Assembly (NCBI GenBank): GCA_963930775.1
Contig: OZ005694.1
Location: 6,875,054-6,939,053, forward strand
From: Cliona cf. orientalis
Taxonomy: Eukaryota; Porifera; Demospongiae; Clionaida; Clionaidae
DNA length: 64,000 nt
Direction: 5' to 3'
The translations under genes were made by a program, and so were the position numbers. The notes beneath the pieces were generated by a model. That model was not told the origin of the DNA and did not search any database. It saw nothing but the letters and a program-made list of their open reading frames with translations. Shown one piece after another: positions 40,869 to 63,527 of this stretch. How positions within the stretch are numbered: the stretch's first letter is position 1; each line of letters opens with the position of its first letter.

Positions 40869-41090
40869 GTTTTGAAATTTGGGGGCAGTAATACAAGTAC
40901 ACCCTCCAGACACGCCCCCAATATCCATAGCCCCACCCCTCGCGTGACACTGTGCAGGCGTAGTCAGCATAAAAATTATACCAATATTCAGTGGGAAAAA
41001 TTAACGTACAATGTGATATATATAAATGTTAACATAATAATAGTATTATTATTCTGAAAATGAGGCTATAGTTAATTATTATATAACTAG
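40869..41090 (-). promoter_or_regulatory. Compact promoter of copy 2 (222-bp intergenic)
   Basis: Carries the CACCC block (40930-40947) but the palindromic gcgcatgcg is degraded to gtgcaggcg, fitting the pseudogene status of copy 2. Confidence 0.45.
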
Positions 41091-44000
41091 CTACTCATCA
41101 AAATACCATTTCAACTTGTGTTTGAGTTTTGTTGGAAGTGGTAGTCTATCAACTTCATCACTCTTTAGCCAACTTGATAGTTTTTCCAGGCACAGTTCTT
41201 CAAGGTTGATAGCACCATACTCTGTAACCATGGATGGGTGCATGGTGAGAAAATTAATTATTGAAAATTATGCATGAGAGGGAGTGTGGTTAATATCCTT
41301 ATGGATTATGGCAGTTCATCAGTATCCATATAATTATAGCTATTGGCTACAACTCTCAAGCCGAACATTCAGAGTCCGATATGCATCATTCGCTCTAGTC
41401 CCACCCCCATATCACAAGACCAAGGCTCGCTCTAGTGTATAGCTACTAGTACAATCATGAATATGGAGCCGTGTACGACAGTACTTGGCAGTACGCGTCC
41501 AATAAGTCTCAGCATAATATTATTACCCTTTGTTAGATATTTAATTGGGAAATTAGTGTCTAAACACTACGGTTGACTATGGATACAACTAACATTTTAA
41601 TAATAAGAGTGAGTCACAAAACATATAATATTTGCAGGGTCATCTAATAGTATGAAATTTGGCATAAACTATTATTCACAATCATAGCTAGGTGTGTGTG
41701 TACATACACTACTACTGTAACACTCACCTGCTTTGGTGATAACTGTAGCAACACCGCGGTCACTATGGTCCACAACAGCATAGACATCAGTGTCTCTGGT
41801 ATAGATGTTCTTTGCTGCTATGCCTTGACTTTCACCATTCACAGTGAACTCCAACACTCCACCTTGGGATAGACGCAATCCAACACAATCTCCCTCACGA
41901 AGATCATCTAAATCAACGTAGCCATAGTCAGACTTCTCTCTAGGAGTGACAAGGTTATTGAATAGTTTCTGGCCAAACCACACACAATGGTAGTCAGCAT
42001 CATAGGAATCAGTAGGGATATCAGGACCAGATTCAATAGGTACGCCTTTCTTACACCTTCTTATTCCCAATCCTAGTGATTCAGTCGTGGACCATTTTGC
42101 TACATATGCCACCATTTTCACCTCAAACTCTGCCAGTCCTTTAAAAGGTTGTGCTCCATATGCTATACCATCAAATGATGTACCTTCAGGGTCCATTCTC
42201 TCAGCTCCTAGTCCATTGTTGGTAATTCGAATGCATTCTCCCGCTGCACTGTGGTAGCCAAATTGAATGTCTTTGTTTGGTGTTGACTCATCTGTATCTG
42301 ACTGTGACAGAGGATCTTGTAGTCGTCTGATTTGATCTTCCTCCACTAACATATCATCTGATAGAAAAAAGTATGTACATTTACGTACGTAACTTGATGT
42401 GTGTCCACCCACATGACTCTTATCTGAATGTGCATCTATTAATTTGGGAGGCTCATACGTTCATAAAAATGTATCATGCTCACCATACAAACCCCTCTCA
42501 TTAAATTTTATTTCTTTATTAGATTGCACCACAAGCAAAAGCAATGCTATTCATTAGCTTCTCTCATTTGCTTGTGTGAATTGTATATTATTATGATATT
42601 GCACATACGTGACAGTACATGTAGTTGTGGTGGTACATGTATAATGTCATGTACATTTACCCCGCGTGCATGCGCAAGGGATAAAGTAATCGGTCGTGTC
42701 ATCGTTGTCGTTGTATAGCACAAAAATCGCCATATCTCGAGGTCAAGGCACCTGAGTGACTAGTAAGTACAATGAATCAGTCGCATTTGACGAAGAACGG
42801 GCTTCAGAGTGCTTCGAATCAAGGGACATAGTCCACGAACGTCACAAATAGTGCCTTAAAGTTTTTATTAGCCTTCGTAACCACGCCTATCGACAGTGCC
42901 CACGCAACATAGCTATATTGCAGCAGTGGCATGCCTCACCAGAACTCAAGTTGAATGAAAGCCACACATACAATACATATCTTCATGAACCACAACCCTC
43001 CCAATACCGTATGGTGGATAATTTTTGCGGGGTGCTAATTTTCCTTATTTTCGTGGTTGACTTGGCAGTCACGAAATTTTCCCACCCACGAAAATTAATG
43101 CCTATGGTATTAATATGGTATAATGCGAGTCCATGATGATTGGCGTGGCCACAAACATCGTGGCAGCGTAGCCAACACTTTCCAGTATTAGCAAGCAATA
43201 GTAGCCACTGTTATCCAGCTGATAGCATCTTCGACACTAATTCTTCTATCTCATGCTATTTGTCCAAGTCTCTGTAGGTATGGCTTAGTAGCAAAGAAGA
43301 TCGCGAGTGAGATCGAGTGCGCATACCGATTACATCATTGCTTGTGCAGCAGAGCTACGCCCCTGGACTGGTTGCTATCACGAAATTTAAAGTCACAAAA
43401 ATTACTTTTGAGGGCCTTTTCGGACTTTTCACGAAAATTAGCACCCACGAAAATTACTTTACATGTAAATCTGGATATGTTCATTATAAAAATATTATTT
43501 TCGTAGTCAATGGTGGCTAATCTTACGAAAATTAGCGCACGCTATTAACGCTAATGCGGTGAGGGGGTGTTCCTACGAAGTTTTTTTACACGAAAATTTA
43601 TTATACAAAAATTTCGTTACATGAAAATTTCCAGATCTACAGCACCCACCATATATACAGTATGCTTCAGCCTTGAGGATTACTGAGAGAGTACAATATC
43701 ATGTAAATTCCTTAAATTATATCTCCAGCCAAGGGTAGTGGTGACTCAATGATGATCATCCTAACAATCACTGCACAAGTGAAATAAATGTACACATAAA
43801 GGGAGCTTAAGCTTACTTACATGTACATTGTACCTCCAAAAACAAATTATAGAGTGCACATCTATATAAATTCATTCATACCCAAAGAATTAATTTCCAG
43901 GTTTATATCCGTCATTGAATCATCTGTGCTTCCTTCAAACTTGATAGTGGGTGGATCAAACCTTGTTCCTCTCATCGTTATCTTCACGTGGTAGTCTAGC

Positions 44001-53102: not shown

Positions 53103-56100
53103 CTACTCATCAAAATACCATTTCAATTTGTCTTTGAGTCTTATTGGAAGCGGTAGTCTATCAACTTCATCACCACTCTTTAGCCAACTTGATAATCTTT
53201 CCAGGCACAGCTCTTCAAGGTTGATAGCACCATACTCTGTAACTGTAGAGGGGTGCATGGCGAAAAAAATTAATTAAAAATTATGCGTGAGAGGGAGTGT
53301 GGTCAATATCCTTATGGATTATGGCAGTTCAGCAGTATCTATAGCATTGGCTGCGACTAGCTCTCAAGCTGAACATCCAGAGTCTGACAGGCAGCCTCAT
53401 TCCCATGGAGGCCCTTCAAGAGGAGGAGGAGGAGAAAGGGCCTAGCTGGTACACATGCACTGTACGCGCATGCGCCGGGGAACCCCAGAAAAATGTGGGG
53501 TAATCGGATACTATTGTATACTCTCCATTTATCGTCCATAGAACTGTACGTCATGCAGAACCCGTGAATGATCACTATGGTAACGCAACTGGTCGCTATG
53601 GAGACTTCTGCGCATGCGCGCACAGTGTGTACCAGGCCCTTTCTACGGTGGCCGAGAAGGGCCATTTATATTGCTGATCTGGAATTATTCCATTTATGAA
53701 TATTGCTGATTTGGAAATATTCCATTTATGAATGTTTACAAAGACGATCTTTTCCAAACTTCACTAGTTCCAAACTACCACCTTACCAAAGCCTAAGCCT
53801 GTGATTGTGAACTGCTATCCAATGCGCACAGTGTAGAGAGTAGAGCAGGTGTCTAACTTTTGCTTGTGCTAAAGAGGTGAGCTCGAGCGTGATGATACTC
53901 GTTTTTGGAGACTCGGTGCGTCGGCTAGCGCTATAGTCGGACGCGGGGCCTGCGCTGCAGCGCTGTGCAGTAGCGTCACATGACGCGCACGTGCACATAC
54001 ATATTAGATCACGTGCTTTATGTTGCCTTGCCTTGAGCCTCCTCGTGCTTTAGTGAAAAAGGAGCTTATAGCTATTTAATATAGTGACTACCGGTAACTT
54101 GAGCGCAGGTGATATCATAGTGATATCAACAGCGGCTATGGCAGCTTTGTCAGACGATCTTGTGATCGAAGAAAGTTCCAGCGGATCAAGCGCTGCCGGC
54201 CCTACCAGAAGGCTGCGGTCGTCGCGGTCTCGGGCCACCACGTCCGGCCGCAGTACTTCATCTGAGCTAACATGTAAGTGCTAGATCTTATCTATGTATG
54301 ACTTGTTACCGTGTCTATTTCGATCGGTATACCAAGGATCAATTTGTATGGGAAAATGGGTCCTTTTGAAATAATTTCAACAGTTACTGTGAGCTTATGG
54401 TATCAATTAAAATTCCATGAAGTGATGTTCAATTGGATCAGCTGATCAGTAGCGATCACATGACGCGCACATGCAGATGCATCTTAGATCACGTGCTTTT
54501 ATGTTGCCTTGCCTTGAGCCTCCTCGTGCTTGAAAAAGGAGCTTATCAGTAGTGACTTAGTCTACCGTATCCAATCTATTAACGCGCCATGAAAAATAAT
54601 TATGAGTGCTGGGTGGTGCGCTATTAGAAGATTACCCTTCGCGACAAGGTGGCGCGCAAAATTTGTACACAAAAGTATAGAGACGCGTGGGTGGGCGCAT
54701 TTAAATAGAGTGCACTTCAGGCCTAGGTGGCGCATCTCTTAGAGAGGCGCGTTAATTAGATTGGATACGGTAACACTCTCACTCTCCATACATATAATTA
54801 TAGTTGCATAATAGCAACATGTCTCCATCAAGTATATCTGCTCTATTTCCAAATTTGTATATTTCCACGCACTATACATTTGTCACTTGAAACTGTGGTA
54901 TAGACGACTTAAGGCGTGACCGTTTAGCCCATTAACTGCATAGTAGCCGTTGCTATCCGCCATTTTGGTGGTCAAGCGGTAGTACCGCGTGTACTGCAGT
55001 ATGCCAGTGGAAGCTAGCAAGATCGATCATGAGCAAGAAGTCCACGGACAGTTTGTCTAAAGCAGCCCGAGAGCGTTCCATCCGGTGTCGTAGGCGAGCT
55101 GAGAGACGAGAAATGCACTCGCGATCGTACACTGTATAAAGCTATGGCAGTGCTGACCACCAACATGGCGGATATAACGGCAGTTAATGGGCTGAACGGT
55201 CACACCTTAAGTCGTCTATATATCCATTCTTTGATGCTTCCATAATTGTCTCTTGAAATTACAGTGTATTTCTGTTCTTTGATATTTCCAAACATACACA
55301 TTTCCATAGTTATTTCTTGAAATAGCAGTGAACATCCTTTTTTTGATATTTCCAAACATGTACATTTCCATAATTATTTCTTGAAAAAGCAGTGTACATC
55401 CATTTTTGATATTTCCAAACATGTACATTTCCAAAGTTATTTCTTGAAAAAGCAGTGTACATCCATTCTTTGATATTTCCAAACATATATATTTCCATAA
55501 TTGTCTCTTGATATTGCAGTGTATATTCATTCTTTGACATTTCCAAACATACATATTTCCATAGTTGTCTCTTGAAGTTGTAGTGTACATCAGTTCTTTG
55601 ACATTTCCAAAGATAATATTATACATTTCCATAGTTGTCTTCAGAAAAAGTTGTATAATTATATATATTAGGTATTTTTGTACTCTGTGTAGACATGGTA
55701 ACGTTATATCTTGAGCTGTATGCCTTATCTCTCTTTGCAATATTATATATTGCTGCATGGATTACCTAGCTACATAATTGACTATGCATTTATATGCAGC
55801 ATCAATTGAAGACTATATTGAAATGGCGAAGAAGAAGAGGGCAAAGCAGACTAAGAAGTGTACATCCAGTAAGAAAGTTGAAGACAAGCACTGCCAGATG
55901 ATGGTATAATATTATACAACATAATATATTAAGTAATATACGTATACAGCTTCTTTTTATGGATATTAATAAGTGATTATGAGGTAACAAAATGGCGAGA
56001 TTATTATTGCACACAGTAAAATTTGCGTATTACTTTCTCTCCATTGTTACAGTATATATACATGCATATTATATGCAGTATGCTGAATCATTTCATGATA

Positions 56101-59100
56101 ATGATTATTGTAGGTCCCAGTAGGGAGAATGTACCATTGCACAAAGCGAAAGAGAGGGGTACATATGCGCAGTGGGGGCGGCCCTCGGAATGTGCTACTT
56201 AGAAGGGATTGTTCATATGGACGAATGTTAGCTAAGTGTATGAGTGAGCTCTACACAGAAGAAGAAAGGAAGAATGCTGAATTTTACATTGCTGATGCTA
56301 AGGGGATACCGGTGTGGCACAAGGATAAGATAGAAGTTGATATGGAGAGTAGTGGGAAAGAAGTTGAAGAAAGGGAGTGGACACTTGGCGAGTATCTTCA
56401 GTTAACCAACAAATCACTGTCAAAATCAATGTTCTACTGTGTTCGTGAAGGTATAGAATCCCCCAGTAGCCATTGAAATGTTAATTTATTTATTCTAATA
56501 CTGCAGAATTGGAATCTGATGATGAAGCAGGGCAATCCAGTGTGGGTATGTTAATCATCTGCTCAAGGTATATCATAATATCTCCACTACATTTTAGGAA
56601 AGCGTGTCGTGAGAAAGGATAGGGGTGATGAGTTGAAGTTCTGTATTATATAATAGATGTGTGATAATGTTTAATTAATGTGTAGTTAAAGTTGATAGTG
56701 ATGCCAGCTCAGATGGTACGGAGTTGGAAAGTGTAAATGAAGAAATTGACACTGGTAATGGACATAGTACTCACGAGAAGATGGAAACAGAACCTGCAGC
56801 ACATGTACAACAGTATGACAGTGATAACTGTAAGCTATTTATAATGATGAATTCTGTATTGCTATCGTAACCTATATCATTGGTTAAAGAAATTGTTGCC
56901 ATAACAACAATGGTGGATCCCTTCTCATAAATTGTCCGTATACTATAATGAGTTATAAACCAATACCATAATGTGTTATATATATCCATGCAGACATTTG
57001 GTATCCATTTTCTCCTGTATTTATGAAGCGCTTGAAGAGTGCATACAGGGATGAATGGTCCTTTCGAACAGTGCATTCACAGTTAGATGCACTTCTTCTG
57101 TCAGAAAAACGTGACACTGTCCAAGATGAATACCAACATAATACTGTTGGTTTAATGGAAGGCAATCCCTTGCACCTACCAGATTTCTGGCTGGCAGGAA
57201 TAGATATAGCAACCAATCGTATGTGTATCATGTATAATAGGTATATAATATATGAAGCTGTTAATATCCGTTATGTTTATAGAAACAGGTATTGATTTAA
57301 TTGAGTGCTGCGATAGGCGAACTGGTGTTGTCCACTACAAGAAGCCTAGTGCTGGTGTGTATATATGTTCGTCTATATTATACTCGATATTTACATACTT
57401 CTTTGATATAATATCTGAGTAGAGAGTACTTTTGGAGTGTGGACTGGTGGTTTTTCTTGTCCTGGTGAAAGCGTGGCATTACTTTGTTGCCTAGCAACAG
57501 GTGGCTACCACAGCTGTAGTAGTTATATGTGGTCCCTCAACGATGAGATACTGGAAGAGGAAACCCATGCTATCGCTTATGTTATCTCCACTGGTTCATA
57601 TACTTGTGTTGTCACAGTATCTGGAAACGAAAAGCATTCCTTCTCTTTCAACGTACTAGGTATTTTATACTTAATACAATTAATCTTAATTAAATTATAA
57701 TTTAATGACATAAGTAGCAGATGTAGCCAATGATAGATGGAAAGTTGTCATTCCAGAAGGAGTCAATGTGTGTCAAGGTGAGGTATTACATGCATGCATG
57801 CATGTGTATAGTGTACATGTATAAATTATTTTTATTAATAATTTTGTATTACAGGAAGAAGTGTTGACATTGCCTTAAAACGGTTGTCCATACTGAATGA
57901 TGTTGAATTAAATGGTATGTATACTAATGGTTTTAATAATTATTATAATTTATATTGTCACCAAAAATTACTTGATAGATTATCGTAAAGTTTGTCTAAA
58001 AGAGGTAATTGGACAGGGTGGGTATGGAACTGTATACAAAGCTAACTGGCGAGGACTGGTGGTTGCCGCTAAAGTAATTCCCCTTCCAGCAGTATCAGCA
58101 GATTCCAATAATGTGAAGTCAGAGATTGAATTTTTGAAGTAATTTATTTGCTAATTCAGTCTATATTAATTTTATTATATTATACTCCTCATAACATTGT
58201 ATGAAAGGAAATTGCATCATCCCAACCTAAGCAGTCTCCTTGGAGTCGAACAGTTGGAAACGAGTATTGCTATTTTGACTCCACTTGTGTACGGTAAAAA
58301 TCTCCATGAATATATTTTTAGCTCTGACAGGAAGGTAAGATTACAATTATAGTTACTAAATTGATAGATTATTCTTATACAAAATGTATAGCTTGTTCAT
58401 CCCGAGAAGTTATACGTGTTGGTTCAAGTGTGTCAAGCTTTGACATATTTGCACACTTGTGAACCTCCTCTAGTACATCTGGATGTCAAGCCGGCCAATA
58501 TTTTGGTAAAAATATTTATTCAGTCAGTTATTGTAAAATTATAGCCATAATTAGCCTATAATATAGTAGTAATTGTATATTATCTATATAGGTGGATGCC
58601 ATGACACTTCATGTGACATTGACAGATTTTGGCCTTTCACATGCCATGCTGAATACATCATCCATTGGAACAAAAACAGCAATGGCTGGATCGCCTGGGT
58701 ATCAGTCACCCGAACAGTTACAAGCATTGAAGAAAGAAATAGGCCCACCAAGTGATGTGTTTGCTTTTGGTTGCGTTATAGTCACACTCTATAGTGAAGT
58801 GCCTTTGTGGCCAGGCCTGACCCCTTTTCAAATCATGTGCAAAGTTACTATTCACAAAGAAAAGCCTGGTACTATGTCTGATGTGCCCGGTGAATTGAGA
58901 GTGCTATGTGAAAAGTGTTTGGACTATAATATTGCAAATCGTCCTACAATTATAGAGGTCCAAAAGGGGCTAGCCCGCATCAAGGTGTGAGCTACAACAA
59001 AGCAAAAAAATTAACACCTGATCATTGCCATCCTTATTCAATACAATTTCACTATAATAAACGATGGATGTTGTGCAGTTAACATTCGATTCTGATCACT

Positions 59101-62100
59101 CTATTATTCATTATTAGATCCTGCATTGTTGACGATCTCACTCATCATGATTATATCAATTGATATAATATAATATTATTATAATATAATCTTCATTAAT
59201 TATTAATGACATCAGTATATGTACAGCATCGTCGGGGCATTAAATTTTATGAATTCAAAATAATTATATATTATGAACATTTTGCATGCATATAAACAAA
59301 ATAAATTATGTTGTATAATAAAATGGGTATTTGCAGACAAGTTCAATTAATGTGTGCTTCAATTGTGCATGTTAGTGAAATATACAAATCGATAGCTTGC
59401 TCAATGGATATAGGCATTTGTAATGATGAATCTGCATCCATCACCAACTTTGCTACCTGAAGAAACTCCAAAGATGCTGGAGGGTCTGGTTCTTCAGCAT
59501 AATCCTCAGTAACAGATATGTCACGAACATCCAACTGACACAGATAATCTTGAATACCTGTAGGAGTTACTGTAGATTCGGACTAGAAAATTTAAGATCA
59601 TGATCATGTGTACCAAGCAATTGAGGCAAGTGAAATAATTCATCAGGATGACCACTGGGGCAAATAGAATTTCTCACTGGCCGCAAGCGGTGACTATTCC
59701 ATTCAAGTTTGACTCGGTCCAAGTCATTTTGGATTAATTGCATAAAGCACAACTTTAAACAATCACTATAATAATATCGTAATAATAATGATAATCATAG
59801 CATAAGTTAACTTGTCTTTGGCTTACACATGAACAACGTTTGTACCATTGTAGAGTCCATGAGATTCCAGTCCCTGAAATTCAAAGTTGAAGCCAATTAC
59901 TATTATTGTGACATTGTGAATAATCTCACCTTAAAAAACTCCTGCCACCAATGAGTACACAATCTTCGCAATTGGGACCACCAGGCCTCTATTCTCTGTT
60001 ATAATTAAAATTATTATTGTCTCTATCTTTCATTGTAATGTTTTTAATCATAATAATTTCTAACTAACTTGGTTTGTGACGGACTTTCCATAACGAAAAC
60101 TCTCAAAACCAGCATAGCAATCTCCATGATTTCTTCTCAAAAAGGGTTGAATGAATGCTAGAGAAGAGTTCTCTGTGCCACAGTCAACTCTTACCAATCT
60201 AGGCATACCTACAACATTTAATTATTTGAGCTAGAACACACATTGTACATGTAACAGGCAAACCATTCAATTGCTTCACACACTCCAAATAATGATGTGC
60301 TATTGTCCTGGGATTATTGTTGCTAACTCCAACTTTTAACCACAGAATTTTCCGGGAATAGCTGCAGAAAAATTAATAAGACTTAGTGAAGGTAGCTATC
60401 TAGCAAAATTTAATACTCCACTGTTTACTCGGATGGCATACCCATCAATGCACGCATGGATTGCAAAACCAAAAGGCTTGATTTTATCAAAACCATCGAT
60501 ATGCCATACATAGTTAGGTCCCTACAATCATGGGAAAAAGAAAGTTTGAATAAAAGGGTTAGTTATATGTGATATCAGATTCTTAGCAAATTTTACTTTA
60601 TTATTGTATAATCTTCTACGTAAACGATTCTTTCTTCTAGCACGAGACCCCTCAGGATCAATTCTTGTCAGTAGTATCATCACATTATCTCTAGATACAG
60701 TCAATGAAGTATCACGACCAATGATTTATAATTGATACAGGGATTCCCCCAGAATAGAATCCAATCCGGGTGCTTAATGATATTCATAGGCTTTTGGTTA
60801 AGTTGTGGCTTTAAACTCCACCCCTTTCTTTGATGTTTATACAAGTCAAACTGGGTGGCCCACCCTGATTCAGGTACACTGGGGGAAACACTGATTGGTA
60901 TGATGAATACTTGTATCCCTTTCCTCCTTAGCTATGACAACATGCCTACCTTGACACTGGAATGCCATATTGCATTCTAACACGCCGCCACATACTTCTG
61001 TAGCCAAGTAGGCTTCCTGATCCTTTAAGCTCTTCCTATAATCAGAGAATTGTTAATGAGACCTCTCTATAGTGCACATATTACCATAAAAGGTATAACT
61101 GCAGCACCAAAAAGAATCACGCTTAATTGGCACTCCATTACAACATTTAAAAATTATTCTATAATCAATTTAACAATATTATCCAATGCTAAGTGCATGG
61201 CACGTACATAACGGAGTGGCACTGAAATTAGAACCGTTACGGTATACCACACACAACACCCTGACCAGTTGTGCCCTTGACGATCTTTACCTACCGTGAT
61301 TATTAACCCCTTGCGCAAGAGCGCGTGATAAATTTAATAAGGCTGGCTGACTCCAAAAAGAGCACACCTAACCTTGCACATTCATGTTTATTAAACTTGA
61401 TAGCTACAACGCCTACCTCAATTACACCCAGAGTATCAAGCAGCAAGGTCCTATCTTGCAAGGTACGCCTTCGCAGGCCGAGTCTCTTCAAAATTCTCTT
61501 AAGTTGTCGGAGAGATATCGATATGCCATGAAGAAAGTGCAGAAAGCACAATATTAGTCCATAGTCGTATCCAAGATGAAAATAATGCTCTACCAGCGCA
61601 TCCCTCGTCCCGAAAACGCATGGCGGAAAGGCCAATAAGGCCAGTATTACCGACAAAATCATGATCCGTTTCTCCGTGGATCCAGGGCATGCCACGGTGC
61701 TAGATTATGGGCCGGGACTTCCTCTTGTGTAATACCGTACTAGTAGTACTGCGTGGCGCATGCGCGTCATCGTACATGTACACAATAATATTAATATTAC
61801 ATGAGGAATTTAGTAGCTACATGTACTGTAAGGTTTGGAAATATGAATGTTTGTAATTTATAAGGTTTGGATATATTAAACTTTGGAAATTCCGGAACCT
61901 CGACTTTGGAAATACTAAATAGTAATGTTAGGAAAAGATCGTCTTCGTAAATATTCATAAATGGAATACTTCCAAATCAGCAATATTGATAAATGGAATA
62001 CTTCGAAATCAGCAATATTCATAAATGGAATAATTCCAAATCAGTAATATTGATAAATGGAATACTTCGAAATCAGCAATATTCATAAATGGAATAATTC

Positions 62101-63162
62101 CAGATCAGCAATATAAATGGCCCTTCTCGGCCACCGTACCTTTCTCCTCCTCCTCTTGAAGGGCCTGGGAACGAGGCTAAATTCGATCTAGCCCCATCCC
62201 ATATCACAAAGCTACAATGCCAAGGCTCAGACTACAGTACTTGCAGTACATATCCAACAAGTATTATTTTATTATGTCCCTTTGTTAGACAATTAATAAT
62301 AATATTGATTGGGGAATAAGTGCTTGAGTATGTGCAAAGCCTAAACTATGGTAACAATTAATACACAATATACATGTGCGTTTCAATTATTAGAGTGAGC
62401 CATGAAACATAATAAATTTTGCAGGGTCACCTTCAACAAAAATGAAATTTAGGTAAACTAAACTAGTGGCATAAATCATTCGCAATCACAGGTGTGTGTA
62501 CATGTACATACACTAGATGTGACTACTGTAACACTCACCTGCTTTGGTGATAACTGTAGCAACACAGCGAGCATAATGGTCCACAACGGCATAGACATCA
62601 GTGTCTCTGGTGTAGATGTTCTTTGCTGCTATACCTTGACTTTCACCATTCACAGTGAACTCCAACACTCCATCTTGGGATAGACGTAATCCAACACAAT
62701 CTCCCTCACGAAGATCATCTAAATCAACATAGCCATAGTCGGAACTCTCTCCAGGAGTGACAAACTTATTAATAAGTCTCCGGTCAGTCCACACACAATG
62801 GTATTCAGCGTAATGGGATTGTACAGGGATACCAGGACCAGATTCAATCGGCACACCTTTCTTGCACCTTCTTAGTCCAAATGCTAGCGATGGAGTCCAT
62901 TCTATTTCATATGTTACCATTTTCACCTCAAACTCTGCCAGTCCTTTAAGAGGTTGTGCTCCATATACTACACCATCATCAAACTTATCTTCAGGGTTCA
63001 TTCTCTCAGCTCCTAGTCCATTATTGGTGATTCGAATGTTTTTTCCCGCTGCACTGTGGTAGCCAAATTGAATGTCTTTGTTTGGTGTTGACTCATCTGT
63101 ATCTGACTCTGACAGAGGATCTTGTGGTCTTCTGGTTTGGTCTTTCTTCACTACCATATACC
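53103..63162 (-). CDS. Tandem copy 4 (partial): NHR exon and tail exon, 5' part outside the window
   Basis: Two exons are visible: the NHR exon 63162-62539 (624 nt, two codons shorter than copies 1 and 3, open) and the tail exon 53236-53103 ending in WYFDE and a stop. The acceptor (tatcag) and donor (gtgagt) match the other copies and phases agree. Exons for the DD, helical and beta regions would lie beyond 64000, since the equivalent copy 1 exon is ~1.1 kb upstream. The NHR has the usual motifs (AGKNIRITNNGLGAERM, LREGDCVGLRLSQDG, VDHYARCVATVI). The intron between these exons is ~9.3 kb because the whole Ig-kinase/integrase transposon (53393-62178) is inserted in it. Confidence 0.72.
53393..53757 (+). 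repeat. Left terminal inverted repeat of the Ig-kinase transposon
   Basis: Interrupted by a ~207-bp MITE. Without it, the match to 61933-62178 is continuous. Confidence 0.8.
53436..53642. mobile_element. MITE inside the left TIR
   Basis: Ends gggcct(agc)tggtacaca with gcgcatgcgc, inverted at gcgcatgcgc...tgtgtaccaggccc. Absent from the right TIR, so it arrived after the transposon formed. Confidence 0.7.
53971..54090 (+). promoter_or_regulatory. Putative promoter of the Ig-kinase gene, duplicated
   Basis: catgacgcgcac, tagatcacgtgctt, ccttgagcctcctcgtgctt then a short leader to ATG 54138. A second copy lies in intron 1 at 54450-54560. Confidence 0.45.
54138..58990 (+). CDS. Transposon-borne Ig-like/protein kinase protein, 15 exons, 745 aa
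   Basis: Exons: 54138-54273, 55800-55903, 56114-56450, 56507-56545, 56598-56624, 56686-56829, 56994-57218, 57283-57354, 57423-57659, 57721-57777, 57855-57914, 57979-58138, 58208-58334, 58392-58505, 58592-58990. All are GT-AG and together give 2238 nt with no internal stop. Residues 1-80 are Ser/Lys-rich. Residues ~85-192 start with a basic stretch and RSGGGPRNVLL (GGG-R motif). Residues ~362-440 look Ig-like (Cys383/384, Trp398, SYTC with Cys423). Residues ~484-735 are a protein kinase: G-loop GQGGYGTVY (491-499), VAAK Lys511, HLDVKPAN (Asp606, Asn611), DFG 625-627, GYQSPE. HRD is HLD, but all catalytic residues are present. It resembles tyrosine-kinase-like Ser/Thr kinases. No signal peptide or membrane helix is seen, so the Ig-like domain may be intracellular. 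The 27-nt exon 5 could be skipped in frame. Confidence 0.8.
54450..54560 (+). repeat. Second copy of the promoter-like segment
   Basis: Direct repeat of 53971-54090 with scattered differences; could be a second start site for the gene. Confidence 0.65.
54563..54772. mobile_element. MITE in intron 1 of the Ig-kinase gene
   Basis: taccgtatccaatctattaa and its inverted partner ttaattagattggatacggta; TA on both sides. Confidence 0.8.
54899..55220. mobile_element. MITE in intron 1, ~318 bp
   Basis: tatagacgacttaaggcgtg and its inverted partner ending acaccttaagtcgtctata; the inverted match runs ~40 bp; TA on both sides. Confidence 0.85.
55221..55650. repeat. Minisatellite, ~60-bp unit, about seven copies
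   Basis: Unit: tttgatatttccaaacat..., atttccataattatttcttg, aaaaagcagtgtacatcc. It creates long open frames on the minus strand that are not genes. Confidence 0.85.
58991..59342. other. Short 3'-to-3' spacer between the two transposon genes
   Basis: AT-rich with aataaa-like signals: ataata near 59055 for the plus gene and tttatt near 59320 for the minus gene. No other feature seen. Confidence 0.5.
59343..61695 (-). CDS. DDE integrase-type transposase, 10 exons, 413 aa
   Basis: Exons: 61695-61417, 61035-60950, 60690-60597, 60521-60442, 60361-60264, 60208-60069, 59995-59930, 59873-59829, 59752-59614, 59557-59343. They sum to 1242 nt, all GT-AG, with phases consistent and no internal stop. The N-terminal ~90 residues are helical with HTH-like features (YFHLGYDYGLILCFLHFLHG, LKRILKRLGLRRR). 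Then come LKGSGSLLGYRSMWRRV and DPEGSRARR, followed by an rve-like core: GPNYVWHIDGFDKIKPFGF (Asp162), VRVDCGTEN (Asp221), NQRIEAWWSQLR (Glu262), i.e. a D-58-D-40-E arrangement. This matches the 'integrase core domain' family seen in sponges, cnidarians and fish. It probably cuts and inserts the surrounding TIR element. Intron 2 contains a small inverted-repeat insert (60739-60897). Confidence 0.82.
60739..60897. mobile_element. Small hAT-like MITE in integrase intron 2
   Basis: Ends cagggattcccccag and ctgggggaaacactg are inverted. Confidence 0.5.
61756..61765. promoter_or_regulatory. GCGCATGCGC palindrome upstream of the integrase gene
   Basis: NRF1-type site 61 bp upstream of the start codon; likely promoter element. 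Confidence 0.4.
61933..62178 (-). repeat. Right terminal inverted repeat of the Ig-kinase transposon
   Basis: Mirror of the left end, expanded by about five 32-nt units (ataaatggaatacttc...aatcagcaatatt). Confidence 0.8.
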
Positions 63163-63527
63163 CTGATAGTAAAAGAAAAGTATGTACATGCACGTAACTT
63201 GATGTATGTCCACTTACATGACTCTTATTTGCATGTGCATCTGTTAATTAATTTGGGAGGCTCACTCATAAAAAAATTATTATGCTCCCCATACAAGCTC
63301 CTCTCATTTTTGATTTGCGTAATAATTATAAGGTAGCCAAGTAAAAGCAATACTGCTATTCATTATATGAATGGCTTCTCTCATTTGCGTGTGTGAATCG
63401 TATTATTATTATTATGACATTGTGCATACATGACAGTACATGTAGTTGTGGTGGTATGTTGCATTCAGGTATGTGTGTTAGTGTGAGTGATGTTTGTGTT
63501 AGAGATTGACTTATTGCATTTGACTTG

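Follow-up and report, generated by a model that had tools for sequence, protein, structure and literature searches.

Element ends and insertion site

A 64,000-nucleotide stretch of the genome of the sponge Cliona cf. orientalis (assembly GCA_963930775.1, contig OZ005694.1, positions 6,875,054 to 6,939,053; hereafter the window) contains a DNA transposon of the IS3EU type, which carries an integrase gene and, facing it, a gene for a predicted protein kinase (Table 1). The left terminal inverted repeat (TIR) opens with TACGGTGGCCGAGAAGGGCC, the reverse complement of this sequence closes the element, and a 6-bp target-site duplication (TSD) is present on each flank. The limits were drawn at 53644 and 62138 because a second copy in the genome stops at these two positions (with TACGG on one side and, on the other, CTGTA, which has one altered base), and not at AGCCTC.

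The preliminary description of this DNA had placed the ends at 53393 and 62178, with AGCCTC as the tip of the inverted repeat. This candidate had to be given up, since the genome has 977 occurrences of the 12-mer AGCCTCRTTCCC as compared to 14 of a reversed control, since the second copy ends elsewhere, and since the sequence belongs to a repeat of about 270 bp where the opposite end is listed too (e.g. C7:4940542-4940811). The 251 bp from 53393 to 53643 match at least 39 other places in the genome at E <= 1.9e-66 (40 of 318 candidates scored, window included). AGCCTCRTTCCC is thus the tip of an abundant host miniature inverted-repeat transposable element (MITE), which the real element has entered, and the interval 53393 to 62178 is one MITE split in two. 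The whole nest lies within one of several tandem host paralogues. When joined, the host flanks align through the junction to an insertion-free paralogue at 41088-42635, which agrees with the earlier suggestion that a tandem copy had been interrupted. Tandem host gene copies (62513-63247, -, and paralogues) were also seen on the flanks, and the 244-aa frame looks SPRY-like by eye only.

Table 1. Features of the element and its insertion site (positions in the window; aa, amino acids; pLDDT, predicted local distance difference test).
Feature	Position	Strand	Basis or remark
IS3EU-type DNA transposon, 8,495 bp, TACGG...CCGTA	53644..62138	.	termini and flanks; second copy ends at same points
Target-site duplication CCTTTC, left	53638..53643	.	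flank comparison
Target-site duplication CCTTTC, right	62139..62144	.	flank comparison
Left terminal inverted repeat, 93 bp, with subterminal 32-bp repeats	53644..53736	+	96% complementary to right arm
Right terminal inverted repeat	62046..62138	-	subterminal 32-bp repeats at 61950-62114
Host MITE, left part (AGCCTC... end), received the insertion; outside the element	53393..53637	.	
Host MITE, right part	62145..62178	.	assigned by sequence; no separate search with this part
Kinase gene of 14 coding exons for 737 aa, comprising an N-terminal domain, a middle region, an Ig-like domain and a predicted Ser/Thr kinase	54138..58990	+	spliced alignment without stops
Kinase coding exons 1-7	54138-54273, 55800-55903, 56114-56450, 56507-56545, 56686-56829, 56994-57218, 57283-57354	+	
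Kinase coding exons 8-14	57423-57659, 57718-57777, 57855-57914, 57979-58138, 58208-58334, 58392-58505, 58592-58987 plus stop	+	
N-terminal domain exon	56114..56449	+	AlphaFold model, pLDDT 69, ubiquitin-like topology suggested
Ig-like domain exon	57425..57658	+	7-stranded model, pLDDT 82
Kinase domain exons with VAAK, HLDVKPAN and DFG motifs	57979..58987	+	
Integrase (transposase) gene of 10 coding exons for 407 aa, with rva_4 domain and intact D-D-E; N-terminus resembles a signal peptide	59343..61662	-	
Integrase coding exons 1-5	61662-61417, 61035-60950, 60690-60597, 60521-60442, 60361-60264	-	
Integrase coding exons 6-10	60208-60069, 59995-59930, 59873-59827, 59765-59614, 59557-59346 plus stop	-	

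The integrase and kinase genes

Both genes were modelled by homology-guided spliced alignment, and neither has a stop or a frameshift in its spliced model. They lie tail to tail. The two convergent, fully open genes that had been described earlier were therefore recovered, with 10 exons for the integrase as proposed, while the kinase has 14 coding exons and not 15. The Pfam E-values given for the two proteins were computed on first, hand-stitched models, and that version of the integrase had two wrong exon joints.

The integrase matches rva_4 (PF24764) at 3.2e-30, and there is no zinc-finger model among its four Pfam hits. The D,D,E core that had been recognised from the sequence is confirmed, D151, D210 and E251 being invariant in all 16 aligned integrases. 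In a midpoint-rooted tree of 59 integrases, shown without support values and with database homologues that carry no transposon labels, the families described here group with a sequence from the sponge Corticium, which by itself makes a sponge host likely. The integrase was found in none of 20 pattern stretches from viral contigs and in two of 26 from bacterial genomes, the latter on short contigs (3.4 and 4.2 kb) of a metagenome-assembled genome of a sponge symbiont, with 32–33% identity and no kinase match; these contigs are probably host DNA. Among the intronless integrases of the sponge genome (33–37% identity), six (L022, L023, L026, L027, L028 and L033) have no match to the N-terminal or Ig-like domain above the inclusion threshold within about 1.5 kb on each side.

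The window integrase starts with MILSVILALLAFPPCVFG, and no Met occurs between this start and the upstream stop. Unexpectedly for a transposase, its first part (61609-61662, -) resembles a signal peptide. A simple signal-peptide rule, devised ad hoc for this analysis, was passed by 69 of 120 listed integrase homologues (443 were found) as compared to 18 of 1,880 internal windows from the same proteins. Among the related families described below, a similar start is seen in F4 and F5, and in F2 without a Met, but not in F3. Judging from sequence, the N-terminus may act as a genuine secretory signal or have another hydrophobic function.

The second gene is predicted to encode a TKL-type eukaryotic protein kinase with intact catalytic residues. 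Two protein-kinase models were the only domains found by Pfam (Pkinase, 8.9e-44), and the catalytic Lys, HLD and DFG are all in place. Among solved structures the kinase domain is closest in sequence to CTR1, followed by MLK and ABL kinases. The exon at 57425-57658 is modelled as an immunoglobulin (Ig)-like beta-sandwich: Foldseek ranks mainly Ig domains at the top (best E 2.8e-3, with no value of 1e-3 or lower), Pfam gives only Ig_2 at E 0.039, below its cut-off, and of the Cys pair only the second is conserved, as is the Trp. The N-terminal exon is possibly ubiquitin-like (beta-grasp), according to a model of moderate confidence. No relatives of kinase residues 1–475 were found at E <= 1e-3 among 5.8 billion proteins (7,999 candidates scored), and none of residues 82–192 at E <= 10 in the same collection (223 candidates scored); this search covers proteins of 0.55–1.75 times the query length that share 5-residue words, and a miss does not prove absence. 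A membrane receptor was considered as well, but the hydrophobic stretch in the reading frame at 57912 turned out to be intronic in the spliced model, and no signal peptide or transmembrane segment was seen when the protein was inspected by eye. Intron 1 of the kinase contains a small inverted-repeat insertion (54899-55220, 41-bp arms, 95%) and an array of a 64-bp tandem repeat (55238-55615).

Further copies and diverged families

When the first 117 bp of the element served as query, one other copy with both ends was found, L015 on contig C1. It differs from the window copy by 23 mismatches in 8,429 aligned bases (99.7% identity, indels apart), its kinase frame is open, and an intron of the kinase has an extra piece of 515 bp. 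The terminal 20-mer, with at most two mismatches, occurs 459 times in the genome and not at all in the control. The 85 exact terminus places listed include 29 inward-facing pairs less than 12 kb apart, with 1.0–1.2 kb as the commonest size, and only the two pairs of more than 8 kb, in the window and on C15, overlap integrase high-scoring segment pairs (HSPs) as judged by eye. The prevailing size of the pairs implies that the terminus has many short, presumably non-autonomous copies. At one such pair of about 1.0–1.2 kb (L008, 1086-2096) the AGCCTC end sequence was seen inside, as if the two repeats nest both ways.

Searches of the genome with the integrase and the kinase revealed further loci, among them four diverged from the window family (F1): F2 (C15:5003013-5011270, with a 115-bp TIR at 97%), F3 (C1:18463744-18473398), F4 (C4:4593432-4602676) and F5 (C1:28.30-28.32 Mb), which is close to F2 and decayed. 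The integrase and the kinase face each other in all four. Between F1, F2, F3 and F4 the identity is 51–55% in the kinase domain and 55–61% in the integrase. In F1, F2 and F4 both genes are free of stops and frameshifts as far as they align, whereas F3 and F5 are decayed. VAAK, HLD[VI]KPAN and DFG are kept in F1 to F4, and the HLD and DFG motifs are altered in F5.

Five elements, spread over four contigs, thus have matching duplications and termini together with both genes: the window copy (CCTTTC), L015 (TTTATC), F2 (ATTATC), F4 (GGATTC) and F3 (ATCCGTG, 7 bp). The ends are TACGG...CCGTA in the window copy, L046, F3 and F4; L015 deviates with CTGTA at one end, and in F5 only one end was found, TACGT. 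Ten of 17 element or kinase-fragment loci listed by hand are on C1 at about 18–33 Mb, which looks like an accumulation of old elements; the whole contig accounts for 37.5 Mb of the genome's 216.8 Mb.

The wider clade of integrases

The clade of multi-exon integrases comprises 12 loci, a count that leaves out L057 as well as further spliced integrase HSPs of the genome search. A kinase faces the integrase at ten of them (F1, F1b, F2, F3, F4, F5, L058, L060, L062 and L063). The kinase of L063 is CTR1/TAK1-like, and L058 is 52% identical to it. That of L060 is IRAK/plant-RLK-like (nearest solved structures BIK1, CERK1 and IRAK) and is preceded by a weak match to Ig; L062 has a relative of it at 88%, and the two loci are 95% identical over 8.6 kb. 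With a hidden Markov model (HMM) that includes L060, Ig matches were obtained at L055 (5.5e-8) and L058 (0.0015). Ends were not found at L058, L060, L062 and L063 in the sequence fetched. The kinases of L060 and L062 (clade B) lie 3' of the integrase exons and face them, and no TIR or TSD was found there.

In a genome search with the F1 kinase, every listed HSP of at least 40% identity belongs to an element locus or to L054, L055 or L057. At L055 a C-terminal integrase exon adjoins the kinase match, and at L057, which was left out of the pairing counts, the kinase frame is open (41%). A search with clade C gave listed HSPs of at least 50% only at C2:5.459, C14:4.384 and C1:18.512 Mb, each a few kb from an integrase HSP on the opposite strand. 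Clade B kinases of at least 48% identity occur at five loci. Clusters of long, open and apparently intronless kinase frames were also seen in the host genome, on contigs C4, C5 and C11.

The element L061 (2914-4157, -) has, besides its integrase, a second gene with a weak relative of the N-terminal domain and an exon that was read by eye as SAM-like, for which Pfam gives no family at E <= 1. The kinship of the N-terminal domain to that of F1 is weak, as the identity is 24–26% and an HMM made without L061 recovers it only at E 0.35. A further domain of the L061 type was seen at C14:2788101-2788406.

Co-divergence and selection

The distances between kinases and between integrases are strongly correlated across nine loci (Mantel r 0.945, p 2e-4), a result that is driven in part by three close pairs among the nine. 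For four between-family pairs the proportion of synonymous differences (pS) is 0.77–0.82 in the kinase and 0.80–0.89 in the integrase, as compared to 0.39–0.40 and 0.29–0.30 for nonsynonymous differences (pN). Synonymous sites are saturated while change in the kinase protein is limited, which from the sequences indicates that the kinase is under constraint. An old partnership of integrase and kinase, maintained by selection, would explain these data most simply.

Discussion

The preliminary description could not match the element to a named superfamily. Its termini, duplication length and integrase domain all fit IS3EU. Complete IS3EU elements always have TA..TA ends and usually 6-bp TSDs (Kojima and Bao 2023, PMC10045372), and four of the five bounded elements have duplications of 6 bp and one of 7 bp. 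The features that PMC10045372 gives for the IS3EU/GingerRoot lineage of Repbase, TA..TA termini, a 6-bp TSD and a DDE transposase akin to retroviral-type integrases, are found here together with many short copies of the terminus. An integrase-type DDE transposase without the HHCC zinc domain, as expected of IS3EU, is seen in the rva_4 protein. Unlike in the sponge, no kinase or other second gene of IS3EU is mentioned in the sections of PMC10045372 consulted.

A further likeness is found in fungi, mainly rusts, where IS3EU elements with a TET gene have TAYGG..CCRTA termini, TIRs longer than 30 bp and 6-bp TSDs (Kojima 2025, PMC12730594), and the TACGG...CCGTA ends of the sponge elements conform to this pattern. 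According to the accessible text of that paper, all these families carry a TET/JBP gene between a transposase gene and an alpha-kinase gene of opposite orientation, and the sponge kinase (+) is likewise opposite to the transposase (-). The fungal enzyme is an alpha-kinase, whereas that of the sponge appears to be an ordinary kinase of the TKL type, combined with an Ig-like and a possibly ubiquitin-like domain; Alpha_kinase (PF02816) is absent from the two Pfam hits of the second gene, and none of 11 alpha-kinase HSPs in the genome lies near a listed integrase HSP, as judged by eye. The fungal elements have TET/JBP, and no TET gene was noticed here, although none was searched for. Lineage-specific second genes are also known from the Kolobok superfamily of DDE transposons, where RecQ is on the complementary strand; the accessory proteins named there comprise nucleases, a helicase and KolX, and the main text makes no mention of a kinase (PMC9587614). 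Since IS3EU features are present and the fungi offer a precedent, the element can be assigned to a superfamily, and it is not the first IS3EU with a kinase. Among the open full-text papers listed, with subscription papers and Repbase entries outside the search, the only mention seen of a kinase in IS3EU concerns fungi, in two sentences of PMC12730594.

The new part is the type of kinase, its domains and the animal host. To our knowledge, a protein with an Ig-like domain and a kinase is unusual inside a transposon.

We consider it likely, with a probability of about 0.7, that this is an IS3EU element with a resident partner kinase, kept by selection because it improves the spread of the element, and acting on the integrase complex or on a host nuclear factor. 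That the kinase is a resident and not a chance passenger, as had been proposed, follows from its same place and orientation in both near-identical copies and in three diverged families, and from its divergence in step with the integrase. We infer an active kinase, its substrate and the direction of its effect as follows. The rva_4 DDE integrase would cut at the TACGG/CCGTA ends and join them to the target with a 6-bp stagger, as the duplications and the class of the enzyme suggest. The kinase, docked by its two small domains (Ig-like and possibly ubiquitin-like), would most likely have as its substrate either the complex of integrase and TIRs or a nuclear protein of the host that takes part in repair, cell cycle or silencing. 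Such phosphorylation would license excision or integration, or lift repression, so that an element with the kinase would spread better and selection would keep it.

Several observations speak against this reading. A constant pairing of the two genes had been set as a test, and it does not hold throughout the clade. In the 4.9 kb of L061, which is bounded by TIRs and the TSD AGTGTC, an integrase is present but a kinase could not be detected (the kinase query scored 90 in the alignment, a shuffled one 86), and thus not every member of the wider clade has one; at L059 there is none within 7.7 kb (83 as compared to 80). F2 to F5 were picked with their partner hits already known; among six loci picked on the integrase alone, four have the kinase. 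Pieces of kinase without a detected integrase occur at L054 (decayed), at L056 (a decayed fragment of the N-terminal domain) and at three of the clade B kinase loci (C1:20.64, 21.85 and 22.42 Mb), where no integrase HSP is nearby among those listed, and perhaps at L057, and given these pieces the genome may hold a free-standing copy of the kinase. Apart from the window, F2, F4, L060 and L063, most of the fetched loci are decayed, partial or partnerless. There is a stop in the integrase of L015 and no in-frame ATG in the first integrase exon of F2. For two moderately close pairs the ratio of nonsynonymous to synonymous rates (dN/dS) is not far below 1 (0.53 and 0.72 for the kinase, 0.82 and 0.57 for the integrase), which is expected if a member of the pair is dead, and the pair of window copy and L015 has too few changes to judge selection.

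It is conceivable that the kinase acts on the host, by interfering with innate or chromatin silencing pathways in which TKL/IRAK-type kinases take part, to the advantage of the element and not on transposition itself. The nearest solved structures, CTR1 for F1, CTR1/TAK1 for L063 and BIK1/CERK1/IRAK for L060, include stress and immune kinases, and the kinase evolves faster than the integrase, as seen in its higher pN. Likeness to immune kinases says little, though, since the genome has many related kinases, and we regard this explanation as rather unlikely. It has a parallel in the TET of fungal IS3EU, which is proposed to aid escape from methylation (PMC12730594, in the text available).

More improbable is a captured host gene, carried as a neutral or near-neutral passenger inside an IS3EU element. 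The kinase domain does belong to a host-like family (TKL, with CTR1 as best PDB match), L061 does without it, and gene capture, for example of TET/JBP, is known from IS3EU and other transposons (PMC12730594, in the text available). A passenger would hardly keep the same arrangement across families with saturated synonymous sites, with pN about half of pS, and diverge together with the integrase. Moreover, the other, presumably host, kinase HSPs listed have at most 34% identity, as compared to 46–51% for the longest HSPs of F2, F3 and F4. A cluster of host genes spread by segmental duplication, with no transposon at all, could be imagined from the long similarity of L060 and L062, which lack ends in the fetched sequence. 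This is refuted for the window copy by its duplication and the insertion-free paralogue; with duplications and termini matching at all five bounded loci, and the terminus so frequent relative to its control, we give it almost no credence.

The reading of a resident partner kinase may be extended, tentatively and with rather less than even odds, to a kinase slot in IS3EU. The kinase would then be a standing second component, needed for efficient transposition or for escape from silencing, and filled independently by unrelated kinases, an alpha-kinase in rust fungi and, in the sponge, CTR1/TAK1-like and possibly IRAK-like kinases behind a shared Ig-like module. IS3EU would permit a test of this by comparison of kinase types across kingdoms, and the Ig-like and kinase protein supplies named parts that can be tested. 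The findings suggest that some transposons come equipped for phosphorylation, and if so, phosphorylation control would lie with the transposon and not with its host.

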